Shown in pieces: positions 1,984-20,072 of a DNA stretch of 26,486 nucleotides. Under the pieces are notes generated by a model that saw only the letters and a list, made by a program, of their open reading frames with translations, did not search any database and had not been told where the DNA came from. The position numbers and the translations under genes were made by a program. This stretch comes from a virus. How positions within the stretch are numbered: the first letter of the stretch is position 1; the number at the start of each line of letters is the position of its first letter. Where the stretch lies: positions 1 to 26,486 of IMG/VR virus record IMGVR_UViG_3300031673_000408. One strand, given 5' to 3'.

Positions 1984-2496
1984 TTACCTCGGGGGCTTGG
2001 TGGATTCGCCGGGCAGACTCGTCGAGAAGCGCTGCCGTTTGCGTTTGTTGGTTTCTTGTATCTCGATACGTCGACTCTGCGCCGTTAACGCTGCCATCGA
2101 CGCCGCGGAATCATCATCACCATCACCGTCAGTAGCTGTCCTGGCCCCCGTGGGCGGCAACGTTGATTCACCCAGCTCTTCATCAATGGACACGAGCTCG
2201 GGGCGACCCTGCGCTTCCGGCATCTCATCCCCATCATCTGCGACGAAGTCGGAGGTGGGCTCGGGGATCACCGACGGCACTGTCGTCTCAGCGAGGTGAC
2301 TGTTGCAGAGCGGGCACTGCTCCAAGAGCGGCGCGGCCTCACACATCACCTCAACGCTGTACTCCACCTCCGCGCCCTTGGTGTGCTTACGCTTCTTGAA
2401 CTGGATGGCATCGACGGGCTTCATGCCTTGCACCGCCAGGAGCTTGCGAATGTAGGCGATGAGATCGTGGTGCTCAAACGTGATGTTGATCTTCAT
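1984..2496 (-). CDS. Hypothetical protein with a CxxC knuckle and acidic tail
   Basis: 170 residues from the ATG at 2496. This start is chosen because its ATGA overlaps the TGA stop of the helicase gene and a GAGG lies about 8 bases upstream; a longer frame to 2550 would add 18 unlikely residues. The first 60 residues look folded, beginning MKINITFEHHDLIAYIRKLL, with a basic patch FKKRKHTKG (33-41). A single CPLC (61-64) could be half of a zinc site. The rest is low-complexity: an acidic segment (DGDGDDD) and then a basic end. It sits between the helicase and the Fe-S nuclease, so an accessory role in that unit is plausible but inferred. No family was recognised. Confidence 0.7.
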   Translation of the reverse strand: MKINITFEHHDLIAYIRKLLAVQGMKPVDAIQFKKRKHTKGAEVEYSVEVMCEAAPLLEQCPLCNSHLAETTVPSVIPEPTSDFVADDGDEMPEAQGRPELVSIDEELGESTLPPTGARTATDGDGDDDSAASMAALTAQSRRIEIQETNKRKRQRFSTSLPGESTKPPR

Positions 2497-5435
2497 GAAA
2501 TAATCCTCGCTTTGGTGATGGCCCGCGTGACTCGGCGCTCGTGAATACACTCATCATCGAAGAGCGTCACACCTTGTACCGCGCACTCCTCGTGCTTAGC
2601 ACATCGCGCGCAGGCCAGGGCACACGTAATTGTCTGTGCCACCGTTTGTTTGAGGGTGAGGGCTCGCGCGATGTTCTCGTCCACCGTCCCCCCGCCGAGG
2701 AGACGGTAGATAACGGTGTCGCGCTCTTGACCCACACGGTAGTTGCGGTCCTTGGACTGCTCGTAGTCGCCCAGCTTCCACGGGAGGGAGTAGTAGATCA
2801 TGTAGTTGGCGGCGTTCAGGGTGATACCCACGCCCGTCGAGACCTGCCCGAGGTAGACGCGGCACGTCGGTTCGGCGTTGAAACGGTCGGCCAGCGTCTG
2901 CACCTTCCCCGTCACGCTCCCGTCCACCCGCACGTAGCCGATCTTCGCCGCTTTTAGGGCGTCTTCGATCAACGCGAGTTCAGGGAGGTACTGTGCCCAG
3001 ATGATGCACTTGTTAGTGGGCTCAGAGAGAATCGCTTCGAGCTGCTCCAAGAGCACCTCTAGCTTGCCGTTAGGGGTGAAGCGTTCGACCGCCGGGGGAC
3101 GCGGCTTCTTATCGACGTGACACGCGCGAGTGTAGGGCTTGATGTCCTCCATGACACAGTCGCGCAGGTGCTCACAGGTGTCGCAGAGGTCAGCGGCCTC
3201 CGTCTTGTAAACGAACCCACAGCTTATCTGGATGAGTTTGTTGAGCAGCACGGCCGCGTTGGGCACATCCACCGTCCCCGCCTCGGTCAAGAGCGTGGTG
3301 ATCTGCTCGTAGAGATCGTGGTACTCCTCCGAGAGAATCAAGGTGTTGTAGAACTGACGCTGCTTCTTCGCGAGGGTGACCGGAACGTCGTGCACCAAAC
3401 GCTTGGGCAGGTCGAGACACTCTTCTTTGGTCCGCCGCAGCGCTATCAGGTTGACCCGGTCGTTGAGCACGTCGAGGTTCTTGTAACCCAGCAGGATGTG
3501 CTTGTTGTGCGGCGCGAATGCACAGAACGTTTTCTGGTAGGTCCAGAAACTTTCGGATGCGAACGCGGGGGCGAGGAAGCGCAGCTGCGAGTACATGTCC
3601 CGGGGATCTCCCAGCGACGGGGTCCCGGACATAATGATGCGCCGACCAGCGCGTTGACTCAAAGCCAGCGTCATCTCCGTACGCGCACTTTGATGGCCTT
3701 TGATGTAGTGACTCTCATCGGCCACGATGGCGTTGTAAGGGACCTCTTGAATGATGTCATCGATCCAATTCCGGGTCGTATCGTAGGAGATGACCGTCCC
3801 AGCGTAGTCCTTCGCCTCGCGAAGTTGCTTCAACTTATTCTTCTTCGTCAGCGCATCGACGATGCGATACTCCTGGTCGATACCATGGACCTGGAGCTCT
3901 TTTGCCCACACCGGCATGACGACTTTGGGGCACAAGATGAGCGGCCGACAGCCCAGGGCGCGCTGCCAGTCGATGACGATCTTCGTGTTGTGCGTCACCA
4001 CACAATCAGACGTCAGAAAACACTCGTCAGGGGAGTCAACCGAGATACAAACCGTTGATCCGACCCCAGCGTCCTCTATCGTACAAATGCGACGATTCAA
4101 CCCTCGGGTCGGCGCGCGGTACCGCGTAGCTTTACGTGGTAGCAGGAAAGGGTTATACCCCGGAGGAAGCGTAAATGTTACACGCCACGCCGTCTGGCCA
4201 CTACGACGCTCACCTCGGTAGGTGTAGCTCGTTTCTTTACTGCGCATCCTGGCGGTGCCGCCCAGAGATTCAACGATGAAGACCACAGCTTCAGACAGCT
4301 TTTTCGAAACGCTCACGAACTCCGGCACCTCCCCGCTGTACCCATCGGTATCCATTAGTCCCTGCAGCAGCGCGAGGCGATGTTCGAGAGCGTTGAACAG
4401 GTAGAGGTCGGGTACGTGCTTATCGGCAGCCCGTGCCCCCCACACCCCTAACTTCTGTAGAATCGGTACCAGAGGATTCGAGTTCCAACGGGTCGTTCGT
4501 GGCCCGTGCAGCGTACCCTTACCGCAGATATGCCACACAGGGCAGGGATTCCCCGCGTACACACTGCGGTGAATGCGCACATTAGACGGCAGACGCGCCT
4601 TAACTTTTCTGCCGATCCAGTCGTCTTTCGAGCTGAAAGACGGCACTTGCCCGCGCCCCAGATAGCCGTCCCCGAGGAGCACGCCTAGCACGTACGCGTC
4701 GAGAGGGACGGCGCGTTTTGAGAACTGCACAGGTGCAGTCATCGGAATACTGTACGTGTAACGCTGCCAGTTTTTATTGGGGCCATACGGTTTGCCGTAG
4801 GTCAGTGAACCCTCCGCCAGGTCTCGCGTCGCCAGTACTTGCGCGGGGCGCCCATGGCTCTTTACGACCCACAAATGTGCGTCATCGCATGTCACCGCCG
4901 TACGATCCGTAAAACATACGCGATTCAAATGCTGATCGCCTTGTGGGTAGACCCCCGTCACACGGTGTGGCTTGCCGTCACCGCCAAAGACACGGTCGCC
5001 GACGTGGAGGGATCCAACAGACCGCCAACCCCGCGGCGTTAACACCGGGGCCTCCAAAGGCAAGCCCTTTCCCAGACCGCACGAGTAGAAGAGCGCACAC
5101 CGGTGAAAGTACAGGGCGTGGACGAGGCCCTCAAGCTGGTGCGCGTAAGGCTGCGTCTTGAAGGTGAAGCCTGCGGGCAGCTCCTGGTTCTTGATACGCT
5201 GCGCAAAAGCGTCGAGCTGTGTGACTGCGGTCTGGGCCGAGGGGGACAACTGGAAAGGGATCTTGAGCGCCCGCAGGTCCTGCAACACGATGGTGTACAC
5301 GGGGTAGAACGCGGGGTACACCCACGCCCCCGCCCGGAGTAGCGTCGCCCCGTAGACTTTCGAGAGGATGACTTCGAAACCCCCGATCACAAAAACCGGA
5401 GTCCCATTTAAGGTGGTAACTTTGACTTCGTGCAT
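2493..5435 (-). CDS. SNF2-family helicase/ATPase precursor containing an intein
   Basis: 980-residue precursor, about 620 residues after intein removal. SF2/SNF2 motifs appear in order: motif I CGLGK|T (Gly120-Lys123, then Thr484 after the intein), DESH (573-576), SGTP (603-606), LRRTKEECL (666-674), helicase-C motifs starting IIWAQ (811), and QSKDRNYRVGQ (893-903), the motif VI form typical of SNF2 proteins. The enzyme would translocate on double-stranded DNA using ATP. Two extra cysteine groups stand out: Cys751, 754, 760 and 772 inside the second half, and Cys938, 942, 945, 951 and 963 at the C-terminus, suggesting zinc or Fe-S sites. It is the first gene of a minus-strand operon; GGGAGA lies just upstream of the ATG. 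ATP binding is impossible until splicing restores the Walker A lysine-threonine junction. Confidence 0.9.
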   Translation of the reverse strand: MHEVKVTTLNGTPVFVIGGFEVILSKVYGATLLRAGAWVYPAFYPVYTIVLQDLRALKIPFQLSPSAQTAVTQLDAFAQRIKNQELPAGFTFKTQPYAHQLEGLVHALYFHRCALFYSCGLGKGLPLEAPVLTPRGWRSVGSLHVGDRVFGGDGKPHRVTGVYPQGDQHLNRVCFTDRTAVTCDDAHLWVVKSHGRPAQVLATRDLAEGSLTYGKPYGPNKNWQRYTYSIPMTAPVQFSKRAVPLDAYVLGVLLGDGYLGRGQVPSFSSKDDWIGRKVKARLPSNVRIHRSVYAGNPCPVWHICGKGTLHGPRTTRWNSNPLVPILQKLGVWGARAADKHVPDLYLFNALEHRLALLQGLMDTDGYSGEVPEFVSVSKKLSEAVVFIVESLGGTARMRSKETSYTYRGERRSGQTAWRVTFTLPPGYNPFLLPRKATRYRAPTRGLNRRICTIEDAGVGSTVCISVDSPDECFLTSDCVVTHNTKIVIDWQRALGCRPLILCPKVVMPVWAKELQVHGIDQEYRIVDALTKKNKLKQLREAKDYAGTVISYDTTRNWIDDIIQEVPYNAIVADESHYIKGHQSARTEMTLALSQRAGRRIIMSGTPSLGDPRDMYSQLRFLAPAFASESFWTYQKTFCAFAPHNKHILLGYKNLDVLNDRVNLIALRRTKEECLDLPKRLVHDVPVTLAKKQRQFYNTLILSEEYHDLYEQITTLLTEAGTVDVPNAAVLLNKLIQISCGFVYKTEAADLCDTCEHLRDCVMEDIKPYTRACHVDKKPRPPAVERFTPNGKLEVLLEQLEAILSEPTNKCIIWAQYLPELALIEDALKAAKIGYVRVDGSVTGKVQTLADRFNAEPTCRVYLGQVSTGVGITLNAANYMIYYSLPWKLGDYEQSKDRNYRVGQERDTVIYRLLGGGTVDENIARALTLKQTVAQTITCALACARCAKHEECAVQGVTLFDDECIHERRVTRAITKARIIS
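3987..5066 (-). mobile_element. Intein in helicase Walker A, class 3 type, with LAGLIDADG endonuclease
   Basis: 360 residues (helicase residues 124-483), inserted exactly between Lys and Thr of GLGKT. Block A reads LPLEAPVLTPRGW, and the first residue is Gly rather than Cys or Ser. The C-terminal junction is VVTHN followed by Thr484. The WCT signature of class 3 inteins is present: Trp189 in block B (DDAHLW), Cys463 in block F (VCISVDSPD) and Thr481 in block G (THN). In that class, block-F Cys replaces the missing N-terminal nucleophile. A homing-endonuclease domain is present, with motifs VLGVLLGDGYL (Asp256) and LLQGLMDTDGY (Asp364), both catalytic Asp residues retained. Class 3 inteins are known in SNF2 proteins (Deinococcus) and in phage helicases, so the location fits. 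Boundaries come from restoring the GLGKT motif. Confidence 0.88.
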
Positions 5436-7803: not shown

Positions 7804-8423
7804 GTTCGTATCCCTTTCTCCACTGCTAGTGGACGGTGAGTCCGTGCGCACACCTGACAGAGTTTATGCGGACGAAACGGCTTATCTAATTCGATGAGGC
7901 GGTGGCGACGTATGGTCCTGGCTGCTTGGTCCACGGTCGTCACGACTCGGTTACTACAGCCCGGGACGCGACACAGGGTGGTTTCGACTGGAGATTGTCG
8001 CACCCTTTTGAGCTCAGCTTCATCTGCGACGTCGGCGAGAAAGCACCCCTGGTAGACGGCTAGGAGGCCCTTCAACGCCTCCCGGTTCTCGTAGGGATGA
8101 TACGTACGCGCCATGGCGCGCTTCACGATGGTGGGCAGATCATGTGGGTGGTAGCGTTCCGGAACCCGGGCCGGATCGCAGGGAAAAACATCGTGGGTCT
8201 TCCACTGGTGCTCCATGGCGTCCGCGAACGCGTAACAACGTTCGGGGATGAGCTCGATACCGCGGGGCTCGTCGGCGAGCTCCGCGATAAGAGATGGGAC
8301 CGTCATCAGTTTGACGTTCCCAAAGACCCGGAATAGTTCATCAGGAATGAGGACTGTCTTTTGCTCGTCGTAGAACTCAGATGGGATAACCCACCCGCCA
8401 GTGGTCTCCAACACTGCGTGCAT
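7800..8423 (-). CDS. Hypothetical protein with C-terminal C4 zinc site
   Basis: 207 residues from an ATG preceded by TAGGAGAC. No family was recognised. The N-terminal 150 residues look alpha/beta and contain VIPSEFYDEQKTVLIPDELF and an YHPYENREALKGLLAVYQGC segment. Near the C-terminus, LCRVPGCSN (CxxxxC) and KLCQVCARTH (CxxC) are about 35 residues apart, a plausible four-cysteine zinc finger. It is the only sizeable minus-strand gene between two plus-strand blocks and is transcribed away from the RNA polymerase gene. A small DNA-binding or regulatory protein is possible, but that is inferred from zinc site and position alone. Confidence 0.72.
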   Translation of the reverse strand: MHAVLETTGGWVIPSEFYDEQKTVLIPDELFRVFGNVKLMTVPSLIAELADEPRGIELIPERCYAFADAMEHQWKTHDVFPCDPARVPERYHPHDLPTIVKRAMARTYHPYENREALKGLLAVYQGCFLADVADEAELKRVRQSPVETTLCRVPGCSNRVVTTVDQAARTIRRHRLIELDKPFRPHKLCQVCARTHRPLAVEKGIRT

Positions 8424-8469
8424 TCTGTCTCCTAAATGGTATGAAGGTCGTACTAAAAAGGGGGAGAAT

Positions 8470-8499
8470 GGAGGTCTGCATCACAAGATACAAACCTCC
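8470..8499. promoter_or_regulatory. Inverted repeat in the divergent region before the RNA polymerase gene
   Basis: GGAGGT (8470-8475) and ACCTCC (8494-8499) are inverted arms 18 bases apart; a TG/CA pair extends them beyond one mismatch. The repeat is in the leader of the minus-strand gene and upstream of the RNA polymerase promoter. It may be an operator or an RNA hairpin. No gene was found in 8424-8583. Confidence 0.25.
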
Positions 8500-8509
8500 G
8501 GGGCACACT

Positions 8510-8538
8510 CTTATACCAAAACCTTATCGATCTTTAGA
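8510..8538 (-). promoter_or_regulatory. Weak candidate promoter for the C4-zinc protein gene
   Basis: On the minus strand TCTAAA (8538-8533) and TATAAG (8515-8510) are 17 bases apart. The -10 matches consensus in 5 of 6 positions and the -35 in 3 of 6. Its -35 occupies the same bases as the -35 of the oppositely oriented RNA polymerase promoter candidate, so the two could exclude each other. Confidence 0.25.
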
Positions 8539-8561
8539 TTCCGTCGACGCTGGCCTATACT
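8533..8561 (+). promoter_or_regulatory. Candidate promoter of the RNA polymerase fusion gene
   Basis: TTTAGA (8533-8538), 17 bases, TATACT (8556-8561). The -10 matches sigma70 consensus in 5 of 6 positions and the -35 in 4 of 6. The -10 is shared with the candidate at 14104-14109. Transcription would start near 8568, leaving a leader of about 16 bases that contains AAGGAA. Confidence 0.45.
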
Positions 8562-8583
8562 TTCGACAACCAAAGGAACCCCG

Positions 8584-11500
8584 ATGCCCCTGACGCCCAT
8601 CCTGATCGACGCTGAAACTCGGCGTGACCAAATCCACCGCAAGGCTGTGGAAGGCGTCACCGACGTTTTCCCCCTGGCCGTCAAGGACCACACCATCGAA
8701 GTGGCCAACTTGCGTGTCGATCCTCGCGCCTACTCCTCACGGCAGCAGAAAGAAGCCATCCTGCACGGCCGCACCCTCCAAGAACCCCTCAAGGGTGATC
8801 TGGTGCTGAAGAACTCCGCCGGTAAAACGGTGCAGCAACGCAAAGACACGACCCTCGCGCAGCTCCCCTACTTCACCCAGCGGCACACCTTCATCGTCGA
8901 TGGCAATGAGTACAGCGTCGCCAACCAGCGTCGTGTTCGTCCCGGCGTCTACACCCGTATACGCGGTAATGAGGAGCTCGAAGCCGCGTTCAACCTCGGC
9001 AAGGGCGAGAACTTCCGCGTCAACATGGACCCGGCGAAGGGCCACATGTTCCTGCAGTATGGCTCGACCAACATCCCGATGTATCCCGTACTGAAACGCC
9101 TGGGGGTGAGTGACAAAGAACTCGACCGGGCCTGGGGGCACGGGGTGGTCGCGCAGAACCGCACCGCCTTCGCCAAGAAGGAAGAGCAGTCGCTTGATAA
9201 GCTCTACACCCGCCTCGTCCCGGAGTTTCGTCGCGAAGCGACGACCCTCGACGAGAAGGCTGACGCCATCAAGGCGAGCTACCGCGACACCATGATGGAT
9301 CCGTCCGTCACGGCACGGACCCTCGGGACTCCGTACGAGCACGTCACGCCAGACACGCTGGTCAAAGCCTCCCAGAAGTTGCTCGACGTCCACCGTCAAG
9401 GCATCGATACTGACGACCGTGATAGCCTAGCTTATCAATCTCTCCACAGCGTCGACGATTTCGTCAAAGAACGCCTGCAACTAGAAGGCCGCAACCTCGC
9501 CCGCAAGGTTCGCCTCAAGAGCGGGCAAACGCTCGACCTCGACAAGCTCGTGCCCGGCTCGCCCTTCACCAAAACGCTGCGCAACTTTGCGACCACGAGT
9601 TCGCTCGCGTCTATCCCCACGCAAATCAACCCCATCGAAATCCTCGACAGCGCCGTGCGCATCACCTCGCTCGGAGAGGGTGGCATCGGTTCGGAGCGCG
9701 CCGTGCCCCGCGAGGCGCGACGTTTGCACAACACCCACTTCGGCGTCATCGACCCCAGTCGTACGCCAGAGTCGTATCGCGCTGGCATTGACCTGCGCGC
9801 CTCGTTGTTCACCAAGCGCGACGCCGCCGGGCGTTTCCACACCGTGATGCGCAATGCCAAGACCGGCCGCCTGGTGGACGTCCCGGTGCATGACTTGGAG
9901 AAGGCCACCATCGCTTTCCCCGGTGAGAGCAAAAAGAGCCGCGGCATTTCTGCCATGCGGGAAGGGCAACTGGTCTCGGTTGGCTCTAAGCAAGTCGACT
10001 ATGAGTTGCCCCACCCCTCCTACATGTTCAGCCCCGCCACCAACACGGTGCCGATGCCCGAGAGCATGCAAGGAAACCGTCTCATCATGGGCTCGAAGAT
10101 GGCTACCCAGGCGTTGCCCCTGGTGGACCGTGAGGTGCCCCACATCCAGGTGGAGTCCTACAACCTCGGGCGCAGCTTCGAGCAGGAGCTGGGGCGCCTC
10201 GTCTCCCCGCACGCCCCGGTGGACGGCATCATCAGGAAGATCGACGAGGACTACATCTACCTGGAGCCCACCAGCACCAAGCGGGCCAGCGCCGACGACG
10301 AGCCTGAGCTCCTGCTTATGGCGCCAGTAGAGCACGTGCTCATGGAGAAGACGGCGGGGGCCGCACCGCTCATCAAGATCCACTACGACACGGACTTCCC
10401 GCTGGCGTCCAAGACCTACCTCAACAACGACATCACCGTGAAGGTCGGCGACAAGGTCAAGGCCCACCAACCCCTCGCCGAATCCAACTTCACGCGCAAC
10501 GGCACGCTCGCCCTCGGGAAGAACCTCAACGTCGGCATGCTGGCCTACTACGGCATGAACTCCAACGATGCGGTGGTGGTCTCAGAGAGCGGCTCGCAGA
10601 AGCTCACCAGCGAGCACATGTACAAAGAGGCGATGCCCCTCGACGATGACATCGTCCTCAACAAGAACAAGCATCGCGCCCTCTTCGGTAACCGCTGGAC
10701 CGCCGCTCAATACGACGACCTCGACGAACGGGGCATCGCTAAGCCGGGAGCCAAGGTGATGCCTGGAGACCCCTTAATTGTGGCTCTCCGGAAGACCGCG
10801 CCGAGTCCCGAACAGCAGATGCTAGGACGTCTCCACAAGACCTTGGCCACGCCGTTCCGCGAGCAGGTCACCACGTGGGAACACCGTAACGGCGGCACGG
10901 TTATCGACGTCGTGGTCACGCCTCAGCGCGTGTTGCTTACCGTCAAAACCAGGGAGGCGGCGGGTATCGGGGACAAACTATGCTTCTCCGAAGACACCGA
11001 AGTGCTCACTAAAGATGGCTGGAAAGACGTCGCTGACATCACCATCAACGACGTGCTGTACACCCTGCGCGACAACCACATTGAGCTGCACGAAGCCCAA
11101 GAGGTTCATCACTACCCCACCGCAGGGGAAGTCTACGAACTCAAGTCCCAACAAGTGGACCTGCGCGTCACCCCCAACCACCACCTCTACGTACAACTAC
11201 GCGGTGCGGATAAGCACACCCTTCTCGAAGCTCGGGAGGTCATCGGCAAACGCTGTCGTCACCAGAAAAACGGACACTGGCACGCGGAGACCCCCGCGGT
11301 GTTCTCACTGCCAACCCTCGACGCCGCGGACACGGGTAAGGGCTGTAAGCGGCAACAAGCAGCGGCAGATCGACACGTACCGATTCCCACAAAAGCATGG
11401 CTACGGTTCTTGGGCGCCTACATCGCCAACGGCAGTTACCTCATACATGACCGGAAGAGCCGTCCAGGTACCGTAGATTACCGCGTAAACCTCCACACCA

Positions 11501-14088
11501 TCCGCGGCATCACCCATTCCGTATCCGGAGACCAACACACCTGGATACAGGGCATCCTTGATGAGTGCGGCTTCGCTTACACTACCCGCGATGATCGCCT
11601 CGTCATCAACTCCAAACAACTCACACAGTACGTGGCTCAGTTCGGACACGCCAAAGATAAGCACGTTCCGACCGTGTGCTTTACGTGGGGCGCTGTCGCC
11701 GCGCAGTGGCTGTTGGAGGGTTTACTCGGGTGCGATGGATACCTCACCGCCAGCAACAGCCTTGGGTACACCACCGTTTCTCCGCAACTAGCCGATGACG
11801 TGCAGCGTCTCGCCCTCCATCGCGGATGGTCGGCCAACATCAAAACCTATCAACCATCGAACCCACGCTGGTCGCTGCGTTATACCGTACACATGGTGCA
11901 GTCCAAAAACACGCCCCAGGTGAACCACGGACACAGTGCCACACAAAAAGCCCAAAGCGAACGTATCATACGCTCCAACGAACCCGTCTACGGCATCACC
12001 GTTCCCAACAGCATCCTTTACGTGCGCGTCAACGGTAAGCCCGTCTGGACAGGCAACTCCGGGCGTTTCGGCAACAAGGGCGTCATCTCAAAAATCATCC
12101 CCGACCAGCAGATGATTCAAGATCAAAGCGGTAAGCCCCTCGACGTGCTGATGACTTCGGCCGGCGTGGTAAGCCGCGTCAACCCGGTCCAAATCATCGA
12201 GATGGCCGCCGGCAAAGTGGCTGCCAAAACCGGTAAACCCATCATCATCCCCTCGATGTCGGGACGCAACAACGTCAAGTGGGCGCGGGGCCTCCTCAAG
12301 GAGCATGGTCTCACTGACAAAGAAATCGTCTACAACCCCGTCACTGACAAAGTCATCACCGGCCCTGACGGTAAGGGTGTGATGGTCGGGCCGCAGTACA
12401 TCTACAAGCTATTCAAGAGCACAGAGACCAACTACTCCGCCCGTGGCGTCGAAGACTACGACGTCAACTTGCAACCCGCGAAGGGCGGCGCCACGGGCGC
12501 GAAAGCCCTCGGACGCATGGAAATCAACGCGCTGCTCGCGCACGATGCCCGCAACGTCCTCAAGGAAGCCGGCAGCATCAAGAGCTCCCGTAACGATGAG
12601 TGGTGGCGAGCCTATCAACTAGGATTGCCCCTTCCACCCATGCGGCAATCTTTCGTCGCCGACAAGTTCGCCAATATGCTCCAGGGTGCGGGCATCAAGA
12701 TGGACAAGAGCAATGAGCAGGTCCGCCTCGGGCCGCTCACCGACCAGGACATCACCAAGCTCTCCAGCGGTGCCATCCGCAAATCTACGATGGTGCGGGA
12801 GAAGGACCTGGCTCCGGAGAAGGGAGGCCTTTTCGACCCCATCATCACTGGCGGCACCAGTGGCACGCGCTGGAGTCACGTGGACCTAGCTGAACCCATC
12901 GTCAACCCCACCTTCGCCGATCCCGTGCGACGCCTGCTGAACTTGAACAACACGCAGATGCGTCAGGCCATACGCCAAGGCGGCAAAGGCATTCAAAAAG
13001 AACTCCGCGCCATCGACATGCCTCAGCGACGCCGCGAACTCGAAGCAGAAATCCGTGAAGCCAACGGCAGCCGCCTCGATGATGCCCTCAAACAACTCAA
13101 GACCATCAAAGCCTTGGAACGGGAAAACCTCACGCCTGACAAGGCGTACATGATGTCGAAGCTTCCCGTCGTGCCCCCTGTGGTGCGGCCTATTCTGCCC
13201 TCACGTGGACGCCGTGACCTGCTGGTCTCCGACGCCAACTACCTCTATCGCGATAACATCCTGGCCAATGACGCGTTGACCGACGCCAAGAAATCGCTCC
13301 CCGACAAGGAGGTAGGCGACGCCCGGATGCAGCTCTACGACGCGACCCGCGCGACGTTCGGCCTGGCCGACCCGGTGAGTCCCCAGCTCCAAGGACGTAA
13401 AGCCAAGGGCTTCATCACCACCATCGCTGGGCAGGGCTCCCCCAAGCACGGCTTCTTCCACGGAAAAGTGCTCTACCGTCCCCAGGACCTTTCCGGTCGC
13501 GGCACCGCCATCCCTGACCTCAACCTCAACATGGATGAGATCGGCCTCCCGGAGGAGATGCTGTGGACCACCTACGCCCCCCACATCATGCGCCGCTTAG
13601 TGCAGGGCGGCCACAAAGCTGTCGATGCAAAGAAGCTCATCGAGGACCGGCATCCCGCTGCGCAAGAGGCCCTGCGACGTGAAACCAAAGAGCGGCCCGT
13701 ATTTGTCAACCGTGCCCCCACGCTACATCGCTATAGCATCATCGGAGCGTATCCAGTGCCCGTTCCCGGCAAGACCATCCGCGTCAACCCCTTCATCGAA
13801 AAGGGCATGGGATTAGACTACGATGGGGACGCGTTGCAAATCCACTCCCCCGTCACGCCCAAGGCAGTCGAGGAAGTCAAGGCGATGACCCTCTCCAACC
13901 TCTTGTTCGGTGACAAGACCAAGTCCGACCTGCTAGTCTTCCCACAGCACGAGGCGATCATGGGCATCCACCATGCGAGTAAGGCGGGCAAGGGCAAAAC
14001 CAAGCACCGCTTCAAGAACCAAGCTGCAGCCCTGGAAGCGTACAAGCAAGGAAAGATCGGTCTGACTGATTTCGTACAGATTGGCTGA
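8584..14088 (+). CDS. RNA polymerase beta / beta-prime N-terminal fusion, intein-containing
   Basis: 1834-residue precursor, 1475 after splicing. The beta part shows the fork/rifampicin region (QINPIEILDSAVRITSLGEG, 347-366, then GIGSERAVPREARRLHNTHF), the catalytic block GDKL (796-799) | intein | SGRFGNKG (1159-1166), carrying equivalents of E. coli Lys1065 and Lys1073, and the C-terminal GRMEINALLAHDARNVLKE block. Beta-prime begins near EKGGLFDPIITGG, then SHVDLAEPIVNP, LPVVPPVVRP, LYRPQDLSGRGTAIP and NRAPTLHR. The metal-binding GLDYDGDALQIH has Asp1745, 1747 and 1749 in place of DFDGD. It ends at LEAYKQGKIGLTDF, near E. coli beta-prime residue 550. The N-terminal zinc ribbon of beta-prime is absent. 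The ATG at 8584 is chosen because AAGGAA precedes it; the open frame extends upstream to 8401 but overlaps the promoter and another gene. The remainder of beta-prime is at 18273. Confidence 0.95.
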   Translation: MPLTPILIDAETRRDQIHRKAVEGVTDVFPLAVKDHTIEVANLRVDPRAYSSRQQKEAILHGRTLQEPLKGDLVLKNSAGKTVQQRKDTTLAQLPYFTQRHTFIVDGNEYSVANQRRVRPGVYTRIRGNEELEAAFNLGKGENFRVNMDPAKGHMFLQYGSTNIPMYPVLKRLGVSDKELDRAWGHGVVAQNRTAFAKKEEQSLDKLYTRLVPEFRREATTLDEKADAIKASYRDTMMDPSVTARTLGTPYEHVTPDTLVKASQKLLDVHRQGIDTDDRDSLAYQSLHSVDDFVKERLQLEGRNLARKVRLKSGQTLDLDKLVPGSPFTKTLRNFATTSSLASIPTQINPIEILDSAVRITSLGEGGIGSERAVPREARRLHNTHFGVIDPSRTPESYRAGIDLRASLFTKRDAAGRFHTVMRNAKTGRLVDVPVHDLEKATIAFPGESKKSRGISAMREGQLVSVGSKQVDYELPHPSYMFSPATNTVPMPESMQGNRLIMGSKMATQALPLVDREVPHIQVESYNLGRSFEQELGRLVSPHAPVDGIIRKIDEDYIYLEPTSTKRASADDEPELLLMAPVEHVLMEKTAGAAPLIKIHYDTDFPLASKTYLNNDITVKVGDKVKAHQPLAESNFTRNGTLALGKNLNVGMLAYYGMNSNDAVVVSESGSQKLTSEHMYKEAMPLDDDIVLNKNKHRALFGNRWTAAQYDDLDERGIAKPGAKVMPGDPLIVALRKTAPSPEQQMLGRLHKTLATPFREQVTTWEHRNGGTVIDVVVTPQRVLLTVKTREAAGIGDKLCFSEDTEVLTKDGWKDVADITINDVLYTLRDNHIELHEAQEVHHYPTAGEVYELKSQQVDLRVTPNHHLYVQLRGADKHTLLEAREVIGKRCRHQKNGHWHAETPAVFSLPTLDAADTGKGCKRQQAAADRHVPIPTKAWLRFLGAYIANGSYLIHDRKSRPGTVDYRVNLHTIRGITHSVSGDQHTWIQGILDECGFAYTTRDDRLVINSKQLTQYVAQFGHAKDKHVPTVCFTWGAVAAQWLLEGLLGCDGYLTASNSLGYTTVSPQLADDVQRLALHRGWSANIKTYQPSNPRWSLRYTVHMVQSKNTPQVNHGHSATQKAQSERIIRSNEPVYGITVPNSILYVRVNGKPVWTGNSGRFGNKGVISKIIPDQQMIQDQSGKPLDVLMTSAGVVSRVNPVQIIEMAAGKVAAKTGKPIIIPSMSGRNNVKWARGLLKEHGLTDKEIVYNPVTDKVITGPDGKGVMVGPQYIYKLFKSTETNYSARGVEDYDVNLQPAKGGATGAKALGRMEINALLAHDARNVLKEAGSIKSSRNDEWWRAYQLGLPLPPMRQSFVADKFANMLQGAGIKMDKSNEQVRLGPLTDQDITKLSSGAIRKSTMVREKDLAPEKGGLFDPIITGGTSGTRWSHVDLAEPIVNPTFADPVRRLLNLNNTQMRQAIRQGGKGIQKELRAIDMPQRRRELEAEIREANGSRLDDALKQLKTIKALERENLTPDKAYMMSKLPVVPPVVRPILPSRGRRDLLVSDANYLYRDNILANDALTDAKKSLPDKEVGDARMQLYDATRATFGLADPVSPQLQGRKAKGFITTIAGQGSPKHGFFHGKVLYRPQDLSGRGTAIPDLNLNMDEIGLPEEMLWTTYAPHIMRRLVQGGHKAVDAKKLIEDRHPAAQEALRRETKERPVFVNRAPTLHRYSIIGAYPVPVPGKTIRVNPFIEKGMGLDYDGDALQIHSPVTPKAVEEVKAMTLSNLLFGDKTKSDLLVFPQHEAIMGIHHASKAGKGKTKHRFKNQAAALEAYKQGKIGLTDFVQIG
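10981..12057 (+). mobile_element. Intein in the RNA polymerase beta active-site motif (class 1, degenerate endonuclease)
   Basis: 359 residues (800-1158), inserted between GDKL and SGRFGNKG. Cys800 begins block A (CFSEDTEVLTKDGW). Block B is RVTPNHHLYV (Thr863, His866). The C-terminal junction is KPVWTGN followed by Ser1159, so the nucleophile, terminal Asn and +1 Ser of a class 1 intein are all there. The penultimate residue is Gly rather than the usual His. The LAGLIDADG endonuclease motifs are LGAYIANGSYL and LLEGLLGCDGYL; the first has Asn949 where a catalytic Asp is expected, the second keeps Asp1051. Homing may thus be impaired while splicing must persist, because the unspliced enzyme would have its two active-site lysines 359 residues too far apart. 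Confidence 0.93.
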
Positions 14089-14819: not shown

Positions 14820-16940
14820 ATGGCTTCACCCCCCAACAACTACGGTCGAGACCTCATCCTCGCCGCGCTGGATCGCTACAAAGAAGCAGCCACGCGCGCT
14901 GAGTCTGAAGCCTACCAACGTAAAATCGAACAGCGCTTCGGTCGTTTCCGCAAGGCCCTCAGCCGCTACGGCAAGAAAACCGGCACCGGGCACAAGCGCA
15001 TCCTGGTCCCCAAGAAACTCCTCAAGCGTCGCGACTTGAAGCGGTTGGGCTTTGTCCCCGTCACTGCCGCCATACCTGAAGCTGGCCAAATTCGCATGCG
15101 CAGCTTCCGCCATCCTGACCACAACTACCATCTCCACGAGCATCGACGTAACTGGACGATGCATCGTGACAGTAGTCCCGCATCGTCGATGCTGGCGCTA
15201 CGTGAAGCGCAGAAGCCAGACGGCAGTGGTCTAACCCCAGATGGACTGTCTCTGTGGAACCGCGTAAAGACGACCTTCACCGGCCTCCCCCACACCCTCA
15301 CCGAGGGCGTTCCGGGGATGGCTTACTACCTCAGTGGCCGCCTCATGGGGGCGCCGGGCATGAAGACCAAGCTCGAAAAGGCGCTCCCCTCCGCCTATTT
15401 CGACAAGATTGACGACTGGAAGGTCTACAAGGGCGTTGCCCCCAAGAAGACCGAAGAGCTGCTCACGCCGCCGCCCGCCCCCGTGCCCGACCTGCCGCCC
15501 CCTGCGACTATCGAAGCACCACCCCTGGCGAAAGCTGCCGCGGAGTTCGCCCCCGGCATCCCCCCGCAGCGGCCCATCTCACGGTTGCCGCGCATCACTG
15601 AAAAGACGATGAATCGGTGGATGCTAGCGGTGCAGGACCATGACGCTGCCAGGGCCGGAAAACACTTTGACCTGAGGTTGGTTGACCCCGACGCCGGCAA
15701 GGCACACTCCTGGGCGATACCAAAAGCCCGGCTCCCTGCGCCCGGCGAGAAGCTGCTGGCGGTGCAGACCTTCACGCATACGCCGGAGTACGCGCTGCAC
15801 TTCGGCGACAAGAAGCCTGGAATCATCGGCCAAGGCTACGGTAAAGGTCGTGTCCGCATGGCGCTCAAGGAGCCCACGGACATCATCGAAGCCAACAACG
15901 ACAAGGTGCGCTTCAACACCTACCGTGGTCGCGAGCTGAGCGAGTATCTGCTGCGCCGTACCAAAAACGACAAGTGGCTCCTACAAAACACGACCACCAC
16001 ACGTGAGAAACGTCCCGACCTCCCTGACAGCAAACCGAAGTACCGGGAGGTCACGCCCGACGCTGTTGATGTGGCTGACAATTCTCAACTCATGATGGCA
16101 AAGGTGGACGGTGCTCACAACACATTCGTCCTGGACCGAGACAACCCCGTACGTGTGTTCTCATATCGTCCAACTGAACGTGACACGGGCGTCATCGAAC
16201 ACACTCACCGATTCCTCCCAGGTCTACGGACACGAGTACCCAAGGAACTCGACGGCCTCATCCTGCGGGGAGAACTGGCTGCGAGTGATCCGCATACCGG
16301 GCGCATCCGTGACTCAGTCGATACGGGCGCCATCCTCAACTCCGGAGTCTGGAAGAGCCGCGAAGCGCAGCAGCACTCGCCGCTCCGTGCCGTCATCTTC
16401 GATGTGGCACGCCGCGCCGGTGAAAACGTCGAGAAGCTCCCTTATCGTGAGAAGCTCAAGATCCTTGAACGCGTCACCAAAAAGCTTCCGTTCCTCGAAA
16501 TGCCACCGCTGGCTCGCACTGCAAAGGAGAAAGTGAACCTCCTGAACCGTATCCGTACCGGGCAGGAGCCCATCACCTCTGAGGGCGTAGTGCTGTGGCC
16601 GATGGACGGCGGGGCTCCAATTCGGTCAAAGTTCCGTCCCGACCACGACGTCTACGTGCGCAAAATCTACCCCGAAGAGGGGAAGCGCGAGGGCCTCGCG
16701 GGCGGCTTCTCCTACTCCTGGACCCCTCAGGGTAAAATCCAGGGCAACGTCGGCACGGGCCTCAAGCACGAGCTCAAGCGTGACATGCTGGAGAATCCCC
16801 GCGAGTACCTCGGCCGCGTGGCGCGAGTCCAAGCTCAGGGGGTCTACCGGGACAAGAGCAATCCGAAGAAGCCAGGGGCGTTGCGCGCTCCCGCCTTCCG
16901 CGACTGGCATTTGGACAAAAATCTCGGGAAAGTGAGCTGA
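14820..16940 (+). CDS. LigD-like 3'-phosphoesterase plus ATP-dependent DNA ligase
   Basis: 706 residues. Residues 1-250 are unrecognised, ending in a Pro-rich linker. Residues about 265-350 form a LigD-type 3'-phosphoesterase domain, which trims 3'-phosphate or ribonucleotide ends. His274, His282, Asp284, Arg286, His320 and Tyr324 match the six catalytic and metal residues of Pseudomonas LigD (H42, H48, D50, R52, H84, Y88), with two extra residues between the first two. Residues about 420-620 are the adenylation domain: Lys428 in KVDG, GEL (484-486), EGVVL (588-592) and Lys604/Lys615. An OB-fold follows (GNVGTGLKHEL...LRAPAFRDWHLDK). This is an end-processing plus sealing enzyme without the LigD polymerase domain. 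Its stop overlaps the next start (TGATG). Start support is moderate (GGTGG upstream). Confidence 0.9.
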   Translation: MASPPNNYGRDLILAALDRYKEAATRAESEAYQRKIEQRFGRFRKALSRYGKKTGTGHKRILVPKKLLKRRDLKRLGFVPVTAAIPEAGQIRMRSFRHPDHNYHLHEHRRNWTMHRDSSPASSMLALREAQKPDGSGLTPDGLSLWNRVKTTFTGLPHTLTEGVPGMAYYLSGRLMGAPGMKTKLEKALPSAYFDKIDDWKVYKGVAPKKTEELLTPPPAPVPDLPPPATIEAPPLAKAAAEFAPGIPPQRPISRLPRITEKTMNRWMLAVQDHDAARAGKHFDLRLVDPDAGKAHSWAIPKARLPAPGEKLLAVQTFTHTPEYALHFGDKKPGIIGQGYGKGRVRMALKEPTDIIEANNDKVRFNTYRGRELSEYLLRRTKNDKWLLQNTTTTREKRPDLPDSKPKYREVTPDAVDVADNSQLMMAKVDGAHNTFVLDRDNPVRVFSYRPTERDTGVIEHTHRFLPGLRTRVPKELDGLILRGELAASDPHTGRIRDSVDTGAILNSGVWKSREAQQHSPLRAVIFDVARRAGENVEKLPYREKLKILERVTKKLPFLEMPPLARTAKEKVNLLNRIRTGQEPITSEGVVLWPMDGGAPIRSKFRPDHDVYVRKIYPEEGKREGLAGGFSYSWTPQGKIQGNVGTGLKHELKRDMLENPREYLGRVARVQAQGVYRDKSNPKKPGALRAPAFRDWHLDKNLGKVS

Positions 16941-17362
16941 TGCTCTTCAACAAGAACGCAGAGATCAGCGGCACCGTCATCGGCCCCTCCCAAACCCACG
17001 GCCTGGGCCTCTTCGCCACCCGTGAGTTCGTGCCGGGGGAGATCGTCGGGGCCGCCGTGGATTGCGTACCGTCCGGAGGAGACCTCCGTGAAGACCTCCT
17101 CCAAACCGGCGAGGGGCGCTACGTCAACCACTCAGACCACCCCAACACCGAAGTCGTCCCCATAAGCTCTGCTCAATACGGTCTCAAGGCCCTGCGCCTC
17201 ATCCAGACCGACGAAGAAGTCACGGTCAGCTACGAACAGGGTATGGAATGCTTCCCCGGTGCCAACATAGTCGTGCCGGATAGCCTTGAGGAAACCAAGC
17301 AGGCAGCCTATTATGCTGGAGTAGACGCCGCCCTTTACCGGGTAAACCTCCAAAGGAGATGA
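16940..17362 (+). CDS. SET-domain protein (putative lysine methyltransferase)
   Basis: 140 residues. SET motifs are evident: THGLGLFATREFVPGEIVG (19-37), the GxG-containing cofactor segment; GRYVNHSDHPNTEVVPI (59-75), the NHS..PN motif; and LIQTDEEVTVSYEQ (87-100), the E-E-x-T-x-x-Y motif with Tyr98. SET proteins use S-adenosylmethionine to methylate lysines on proteins. There are no pre-SET or post-SET cysteine clusters, so it is a minimal form. The C-terminus (QAAYYAGVDAALYRVNL, 121-137) carries the short helix signature seen at the N-termini of neighbouring proteins. The start overlaps the ligase stop. The target is unknown; the phage RNA polymerase, ligase or virion proteins are candidates by proximity only. 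Confidence 0.85.
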   Translation: MLFNKNAEISGTVIGPSQTHGLGLFATREFVPGEIVGAAVDCVPSGGDLREDLLQTGEGRYVNHSDHPNTEVVPISSAQYGLKALRLIQTDEEVTVSYEQGMECFPGANIVVPDSLEETKQAAYYAGVDAALYRVNLQRR

Positions 17363-18272: not shown

Positions 18273-20072
18273 GTGGCCACGACCACCACGCTGGGACGCC
18301 TCCTCCTCAACGACGCTCTCCCCTCAACGCACCAAATCAAACAAGAGGTCTCCAAGAAAGACCTCAACACCTTGATGTCTGACCTGGCACGTAAAGATCC
18401 CACCCGTTACGTGACCACCATCGCGGAGATGAAGCGCATCGGAGACGCTGTCGCTACCGATACCGGCATCACCGTCGGCTTGGACGACATCGAGCCGGAC
18501 TACGCCGTCCGCGACCGGGTGCTCGAACCGTATCTCGCCAAGGTGAAACAAACCGCGGACCCGCAGAAAAAGCGCGCTCTTATTGAAGAAGCTCAGCGCA
18601 AGATGATCGAGCTGACCAAAAAACACCCCGGTCAGATGACCACCATGGCGCTCAGCGGTGCCCGGGGCAGCGTGGCCCAGCTGATGCGCAGTGTTACTTC
18701 GCCCGTCGCGGCGGAGGATGACCGTAATCAAACCATCCCGTGGATCATCAGTAAGAGCTACGCCGAGGGTCTGAAAAGTCCCGACGCCTGGATCGCAATG
18801 GCAGAAGCCCGACGCAACGCGGTCGAGACCTACACCGCCGTCGCGGCTCCCGGCGAAGTCAGCAAGCTCCTCGTCGGTAACATGAGCGACCAACTCATTA
18901 CGATGCCGGACTGCGGCACGACTAACGGCGTACCCATGCGCGCCGACGACACGCAAGTCATCGACCGCTACCTCGCCCAAAGCGTCAAGGGCTTCCGCGC
19001 TAACACCCTCGTCACCTCGCAGGTAGCTTCGCAGCTCCAACAGAGCCAAGTCATCGTGCGCTCACCCATGACATGCGAAGCCCCAGACGGCATCTGTCAG
19101 CGTTGCTACGGCTTGTCCACCAAGGGCCAGTACCCGCAAATCGGCGCCAACGTCGGCATGCTCGCCGCCCATGCTATGGGTGAGCCGCTGACCCAGATGG
19201 CGCTGAATGCGAAGCACGCCACGCGCACCACGGACTCCAACAAGGCTATCCTCAGTGGGTTGGCGGGCTTCAAGCAGTTGACTGAGATTCCGCAGAGCTT
19301 CTTCAACAAAGCCACCTTGTCGAATCGTGAGGGCACCGTCGGCACCGTTAAGGCGGCCCCGCAAGGTGGCAACTACGTCTGGGTAGATGACAATGAACAC
19401 TATGTCCCACCAAATCTCGCCGTTCACGTTAAACCGGGACAACACGTGGACGCAGGCGACGCTCTTTCTGATGGCATTCCCAAACCCGATGAAGTCGTGC
19501 GTTTCAAAGGTCTCGGGGCAGGGCGCAAGTACCTCGTGGATGAGCTCCAAAACATCTACCAACGAAACGGTCTCGACATCGATAAGCGGCACCTGGAGCT
19601 CCTCGCCAAGACGGACCTCAACTACGTAAAAATGACCGACCAAGATAGCCCTGAGTTCGGCTTCATGCGGGGCGACATCGTCGACTACAATCGGTTCCGT
19701 CTCGCTGCGGCCAAGAATGCCCAGACCGTGGCCATCAAAGACAGCGTCGGGCATTCCTTAGGCGATACCACTCTGCACTACACCGCGGGCACCACTATAA
19801 CGCCAACCGTGGCGCAAGACCTGACCAATAGTGGCTTCACCAAAGTACCCGTCGTCATGAACATGCCCCGCCACGAGCCCATCATGAAACCGATCAGTCG
19901 CACGCCGTTGCTGCATCCCGACTGGTTGGCGAAGATGGGCCACCGTAACCTCAAGAACACCATCCTCGAAGGCGCAGCCTTCGGTGAACCTTCAAATATC
20001 CATGGCACCCATCCGATACCAGCCTTCGTGATGGGTGAAGAATTTGGCGCCGGCCCAAAAGGACGGTACTAA
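18273..20072 (+). CDS. RNA polymerase beta-prime, C-terminal part
   Basis: 599 residues with a GTG start supported by GAGG 7 bases upstream. It begins at the TTxGR block (TTTTLGRLLLNDALPS), near E. coli beta-prime residue 611, so it continues almost exactly where the fusion protein at 8584 stops. Conserved parts: SGARGSVAQL (128-137), the bridge helix (SYAEGLKSPDAWIAMAEARR, 162-181), Cys214, Cys268, Cys275 and Cys278 of the second zinc site, and the trigger-loop region VGMLAAHAMGEPLTQMALNA (294-313) with His315 matching E. coli His936. Leu311 replaces Met932. It ends with a LKNTILEG..GEPSNI segment. At 599 residues it is much shorter than the matching part of E. coli beta-prime, about 800 residues, so large insertions are absent. 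It would assemble with the spliced fusion protein into the catalytic core. Confidence 0.95.
   Translation: MATTTTLGRLLLNDALPSTHQIKQEVSKKDLNTLMSDLARKDPTRYVTTIAEMKRIGDAVATDTGITVGLDDIEPDYAVRDRVLEPYLAKVKQTADPQKKRALIEEAQRKMIELTKKHPGQMTTMALSGARGSVAQLMRSVTSPVAAEDDRNQTIPWIISKSYAEGLKSPDAWIAMAEARRNAVETYTAVAAPGEVSKLLVGNMSDQLITMPDCGTTNGVPMRADDTQVIDRYLAQSVKGFRANTLVTSQVASQLQQSQVIVRSPMTCEAPDGICQRCYGLSTKGQYPQIGANVGMLAAHAMGEPLTQMALNAKHATRTTDSNKAILSGLAGFKQLTEIPQSFFNKATLSNREGTVGTVKAAPQGGNYVWVDDNEHYVPPNLAVHVKPGQHVDAGDALSDGIPKPDEVVRFKGLGAGRKYLVDELQNIYQRNGLDIDKRHLELLAKTDLNYVKMTDQDSPEFGFMRGDIVDYNRFRLAAAKNAQTVAIKDSVGHSLGDTTLHYTAGTTITPTVAQDLTNSGFTKVPVVMNMPRHEPIMKPISRTPLLHPDWLAKMGHRNLKNTILEGAAFGEPSNIHGTHPIPAFVMGEEFGAGPKGRY

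Follow-up and report, generated by a model that had tools for sequence, protein, structure and literature searches.

Is the 359-residue segment between two active-site lysines of a phage RNA polymerase (RNAP) β subunit an intein, and could its splicing delay or condition phage transcription, as a sequence-only reading of this locus had proposed? The locus lies in an IMG/VR virus record of 26,486 bases, called the window here, on which all positions are counted; labels such as L001, L013 or L131 denote contigs compared in the analysis. The ORF at 8401-14088 encodes RNAP β fused to the N-terminal half of β', as identified by β HMMs, with the intein in frame. The frame is open from 8401, and ATG 8584 is the start that relatives have in common, as seen by comparison with L001, making 8584 the likely real start of the polymerase gene. 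The features discussed below are as follows.

8584-10980, plus strand: N-extein, the N-terminal part of β, ending in GIGDKL (β HMMs)
10975-10977, plus strand: codon for the counterpart of E. coli β K1065 (mapping to E. coli β)
10981-12057, plus strand: intein, 359 amino acids, from C1 to G358-N359 (HMMs, alignment, model)
10981-10983, plus strand: Cys1, first nucleophile, block A (invariant in the 21-row alignment)
11170-11181, plus strand: block B, T64-x-x-H67 (both invariant in the 21-row alignment; L131 has Ser at position 64)
11380-11910, plus strand: LAGLIDADG endonuclease domain, residues 134-310 (Pfam LAGLIDADG_3; I-DmoI, Z 14)
11428-11430, plus strand: Asn150 in LAGLIDADG motif 1, LGAYIANG (alignment)
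11734-11736, plus strand: Asp252 in LAGLIDADG motif 2, LLGCDG, retained (alignment)
12052-12057, plus strand: C-terminal Gly358-Asn359, block G, with Gly replacing the usual penultimate His (invariant in 21 inteins)
12058-14085, plus strand: C-extein, comprising Ser+1, the remainder of β and the N-terminal half of β' including the catalytic DYDGD (HMMs)
12076-12078, plus strand: codon for the counterpart of E. coli β K1073 (mapping to E. coli β)
18273-20072, plus strand: C-terminal half of β', a separate gene (rpoC_TIGR, E 2.7e-63, profile positions 548-1070)

Between the two β' halves the phage carries a small SET-domain gene (16940-17362, E 7e-10). A single gene at 14820-16940 combines LigD 3'-phosphoesterase and ATP-dependent DNA ligase domains, and at the corresponding position L001 carries a gene with partial similarity.

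The N-extein ends with Lys (10975-10977) and Leu (10978-10980), followed by the first intein residues CFSEDTEVLTKDGW. The intein terminates in VWTGN, the W-T-G-N codons occupying 12046-12057, and the C-extein opens with S+1 (12058) followed by GRFGNKG. Relatives without the intein read GDK[LVI]/[ASTC]xR.GxKG, where the slash marks the insertion point, and have no gap at this site; about 65 distinct empty homologues show that the insertion is exact and in frame. The site was mapped via the empty relative L003, whose residues 294-361 correspond to residues 1060-1127 of E. coli β in solved bacterial β chains. E. coli β 1063-1074, GDKMAGRHGNKG, includes both K1065 and K1073, and the insertion point falls between M1066 and A1067. 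Thus, the coordinates proposed for the intein, 10981-12057, proved exact, comprising 359 in-frame codons, and the proposed split of GDKL/SGRFGNKG between the equivalents of Lys1065 and Lys1073 is confirmed by the mapping from L003 to E. coli.

The segment matches Pfam LAGLIDADG_3 above the cut-off (E 5e-7) and intein_Nterm just under it (E 3e-4, 21.6 bits with a cut-off of 24.5 bits); by sequence, Hint_2 is found only below the cut-off (E 0.056), and searching the isolated intein by sequence against the PDB gave one marginal match, AceL NrdHF. An AlphaFold model based on 21 related inteins (mean pLDDT 92, pTM 0.90) consists of a Hint splicing domain and a LAGLIDADG endonuclease. Its best PDB matches are whole inteins with Z scores of 21-26, namely TliVMA (Z 26.3), intein endonuclease II (2cw7, Z 25.9), the Tko Pol intein and PI-SceI (Z about 21). 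The Hint fold is present, scoring Z 15-26 against solved inteins, and I-DmoI matches model residues 134-310 with Z 14.3. C1, T64, H67, R349, W356, G358 and N359 are invariant in the alignment of 21 inteins, which includes those of giant viruses, and the class 1 splice set is present with C1, T64 and H67 of block B, N359 and S+1. The usual penultimate His and the block F Asp/Cys are absent, their places being taken by Gly358 and Gly338; this His and Asp/Cys are usual in class 1 inteins, yet not required. These two glycines are non-canonical and could mark slow or inefficient splicing.

The HMM matches, the model with Z 26 and the junction pattern, all 20 matches of which carry an intein (see below), identify 10981-12057 as an intein far beyond chance. 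We also considered that the segment might instead be an inserted domain with a function in the polymerase, since large lineage-specific β insertions do exist in these phages, for example in L014 and L074. The intein fold, the complete set of splice residues, the exact and reversible insertion and the patchy presence among near relatives led us to reject this explanation, to which we assign virtually no probability. The insertions in L014 and L074 themselves are located in the N-terminal part of β, upstream of GDK, and do not resemble inteins (e.g. ...KIELEKGDIRRG...GHIPKTRGHDGETVDIYL...).

In IMG/VR, an exact search with a degenerate DNA pattern of the C-terminal junction matched 20 viral contigs, all of which have the GDK site occupied by an intein. 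The C-extein profile retrieved 474 relatives, and among the best 80 of these 474 the site is occupied in nine and empty in 67, the remaining four not being scored. In the tree set, which was enriched for occupied members by the junction search, 16 of 81 distinct polymerases are occupied, and occupancy changes ten times on the tree, at least nine of these changes being forced by supported branches. The intein at the GDK site has thus been gained or lost about ten times, and within this uncultured phage lineage that site is a hot spot. The rarity that the sequence-only reading had assumed for bacterial and phage β therefore does not apply to these phages, while in cellular bacteria no case was found (see below). 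A second intein site exists in the same phage β, RTPE/S, which falls in the fork region and corresponds to TPEG 563-566 of E. coli. It is occupied in L007 (7376-8428), L094 (3820-4866) and L119 (3808-4857) as well as in L113; the inteins of the first three group together as a single clade (100/100). The window itself contains a second intein in a SNF2-type helicase (3987-5063, minus strand), located between the Walker A GLGK and a T. Cys1 is missing, block B has a Trp (HLWVV), block F a Cys (VCISVDSP), and position +1 is Thr. By sequence, these residues constitute the class 3 signature that the Snf2 intein of D. radiodurans is reported to have.

The eight polymerases nearest to that of the window (67-72% C-extein identity) are all empty, whereas more distant ones carry related inteins. 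The inteins of the window and L013 are 63% identical, with exteins at 54/47%; the intein of L131, a phage-like contig within an Eisenbacteria MAG, is 65% identical to that of the window, with exteins at 37/36%. Cases that look vertical show the opposite relation, with inteins at 56-68% and exteins at 75-94% identity in L025/L027/L032/L036, and 60% versus 85/81% in L028/L039. Because the inteins at this site as a rule change more rapidly than the genes that carry them, the window intein requires lateral transfer, for which these identities are clear evidence. In L131, β-β' is encoded in a single frame of >2,850 codons with the same-site intein, and the end of this frame resembles the start of another insert.

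Taken together, we consider it very probable that the segment is a mobile LAGLIDADG intein of class 1 type that resides at the hyper-conserved GDK/(S or C) site of phage β and is spliced out constitutively. The β-β'N precursor would be translated with the intein inside, and Cys1, the block B Thr and His, Asn359 and Ser+1 would excise it and join GDKL to SGRFGNKG. Ligation would restore the segment with the active-site lysines, assembly would follow, and the polymerase could work only afterwards. From the known RNAP structure, an enzyme with 359 residues between the equivalents of K1065 and K1073 is expected to be inactive and hence dependent on splicing. The element would persist because the site is essential and imprecise loss impossible, and it would spread by homing, presumably driven by its own endonuclease, or by recombination between co-infecting phages, with empty alleles being common.

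That the insertion necessarily disables the enzyme is also what makes a regulatory role conceivable, in which slow splicing, or splicing responsive to redox state, temperature or metals, times the activation of the polymerase. The non-canonical penultimate Gly would fit such a role, loss of the penultimate His being known to affect splicing in some inteins (PMC5874633). About 80% of the distinct relatives, including the eight nearest, nevertheless manage without the intein, and the Gly-Asn end is invariant in all same-site inteins, from phages and giant viruses alike, as well as in the second-site inteins, so that it looks like a trait of the family; Gly-Asn ends are also described for other RNAP inteins (PMC1635734). 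Moreover, the homologous β of phage Arash, gp206, is the virion protein with the most spectra (PMC10585845), which argues against delayed early transcription; its C-extein is 36% identical and its site is empty. If the case of Arash holds here, the enzyme for early transcription may already have been spliced in the preceding host cell, so that new splicing may not have to be awaited. We found no sign of conditional splicing, and the idea that the intein delays or conditions transcription is not borne out; we regard a regulatory intein as highly improbable and retain constitutive splicing as the probable mode.

The endonuclease of the intein is unusual. Active LAGLIDADG proteins have one acid in each motif. 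The window intein has N150 in motif 1 and D252 in motif 2; Asn150 corresponds to position 21 of I-DmoI by chain offset, and the other same-site inteins with an intact endonuclease have Asp or Glu at this position and Asp in motif 2, the L023 intein being Asp/Asp. Seven inteins (window, L001, L013, L026, L037, L039, L131) share the Asn/Asp combination, and both acids are lost in L028, which is S/S, and in the L025 group, which has K together with A or S. With Asn150 in place of a catalytic acid, double-strand cleavage by the intein's own endonuclease appears doubtful, even though the element has moved. A decayed, fixed intein, which splices but has a dead endonuclease and is now inherited only vertically or carried along by ordinary recombination, is a variant of the mobile intein described above that differs solely in the state of the endonuclease. 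Besides Asn150, full decay in the close relatives L028 and L025 group, the host clade of the latter having no empty members, speaks for this variant. On the other hand, N150/D252 is kept in seven divergent members, in which the endonuclease domain is about as conserved as the splicing domain (61% versus 59% identity), and the clearest lateral transfers (window, L013, L131) fall within this very clade. We consider decay a real possibility, though not the probable state of this intein. Conservation of the endonuclease domain was rejected as proof of activity, as the domain is equally conserved in the L025 group, where both acids are lost, and dN/dS values on the intein were saturated or based on too few changes.

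In the Asn clade, either the enzyme is dead and the element moved by ordinary recombination or before the change, or a half-active enzyme is enough. Gene conversion is stimulated by LAGLIDADG enzymes that were engineered to nick (McConnell Smith et al. 2009, cited in PMC3943268). Judged from its motifs, the N150/D252 clade might comprise natural half-site LAGLIDADG enzymes, such as nickases, that home into very divergent phage polymerases, a reading we think unlikely.

Giant viruses use the homologous site. In L121-L125, which are viral and encode eukaryote-type RPB2, and in L134, from a bacterial MAG bin, an intein ending in WTGN directly precedes SSRHGQKG, and where the N-terminal junction is covered (L121-L124, L134) it follows GDKF or GDKL. 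The RPB2 site GDKF/SSRHGQKG of giant viruses is homologous to GDKL/SGRFGNKG of the phages, and the inteins of the two groups align over their full length with roughly 26-34% identity. The intein tree, in which the deep forks are open, neither favours nor rejects a single clade of same-site phage and giant-virus inteins (AU p 0.35). L121 is a giant-virus-type RPB2 with two inteins (178-1527 and 2158-3192), at SYQ/CAMGKQ and GDKF/SSRHGQKG. In 84,980 bacterial species genomes the junction pattern, which is exact though degenerate and can miss cases, detected no same-site intein in rpoB. In a scan of bacterial genomes with an intein profile, which can likewise miss cases, the only copies at this site lay on two virus-like contigs of bacterial MAGs (L131, L134).

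These results document a site at the catalytic centre of phage RNAPs that many inteins occupy. Together with the homologous site in eukaryotic giant viruses, one DNA and protein target has apparently been struck in two groups of viruses that are separated by a deep divide. Homing at an essential gene becomes directly testable with these phages, which offer empty and occupied alleles in pairs and a clear record of lateral transfer. The Asn that is stably kept in one of the endonuclease active sites poses the concrete question of how such an element moves. Where phage RNAP serves as a phylogenetic marker, inteins must be removed first.

The open-licence literature yielded no report of inteins in phage β, so that use of the site in phages is apparently not reported, whereas the kind of intein is known and the homologous site is in use in giant viruses. 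By its β and β' HMM matches and its gene layout, the host gene fits the description of the multisubunit-RNAP-encoding Caudovirales, mReC (Weinheimer & Aylward 2020, PMC7481178), which are likewise uncultured tailed phages from IMG/VR and whose β and β' align readily with the cellular subunits; the main text of that paper does not mention inteins. Salmonella phage Arash and Vibrio phage D181 are cultured and encode fused β-β'N relatives with about 36% identity, but their site is empty and reads GDK[VI]/TGLHGNKG. The chloroplast rpoB of Stigeoclonium also has an intein in a bacterial-type β (She_RPB2, PMC1931444), a likeness at the level of the host subunit. According to Goodwin et al. 2006 (PMC1635734), the hybrid-binding domain of RPB2 harbours an intein in a P. 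ramorum virus and in E. huxleyi virus 163, where it ends in TGN; its site is probably homologous to the GDK site of the phages. The RPB2-type inteins of that paper resemble the window intein in residing in the second-largest subunit at conserved sites near the active site, in starting with C1 and often in ending with Gly-Asn; they occupy eukaryotic and NCLDV polymerases, whereas the host of the window intein is a bacteriophage β-β'N fusion.
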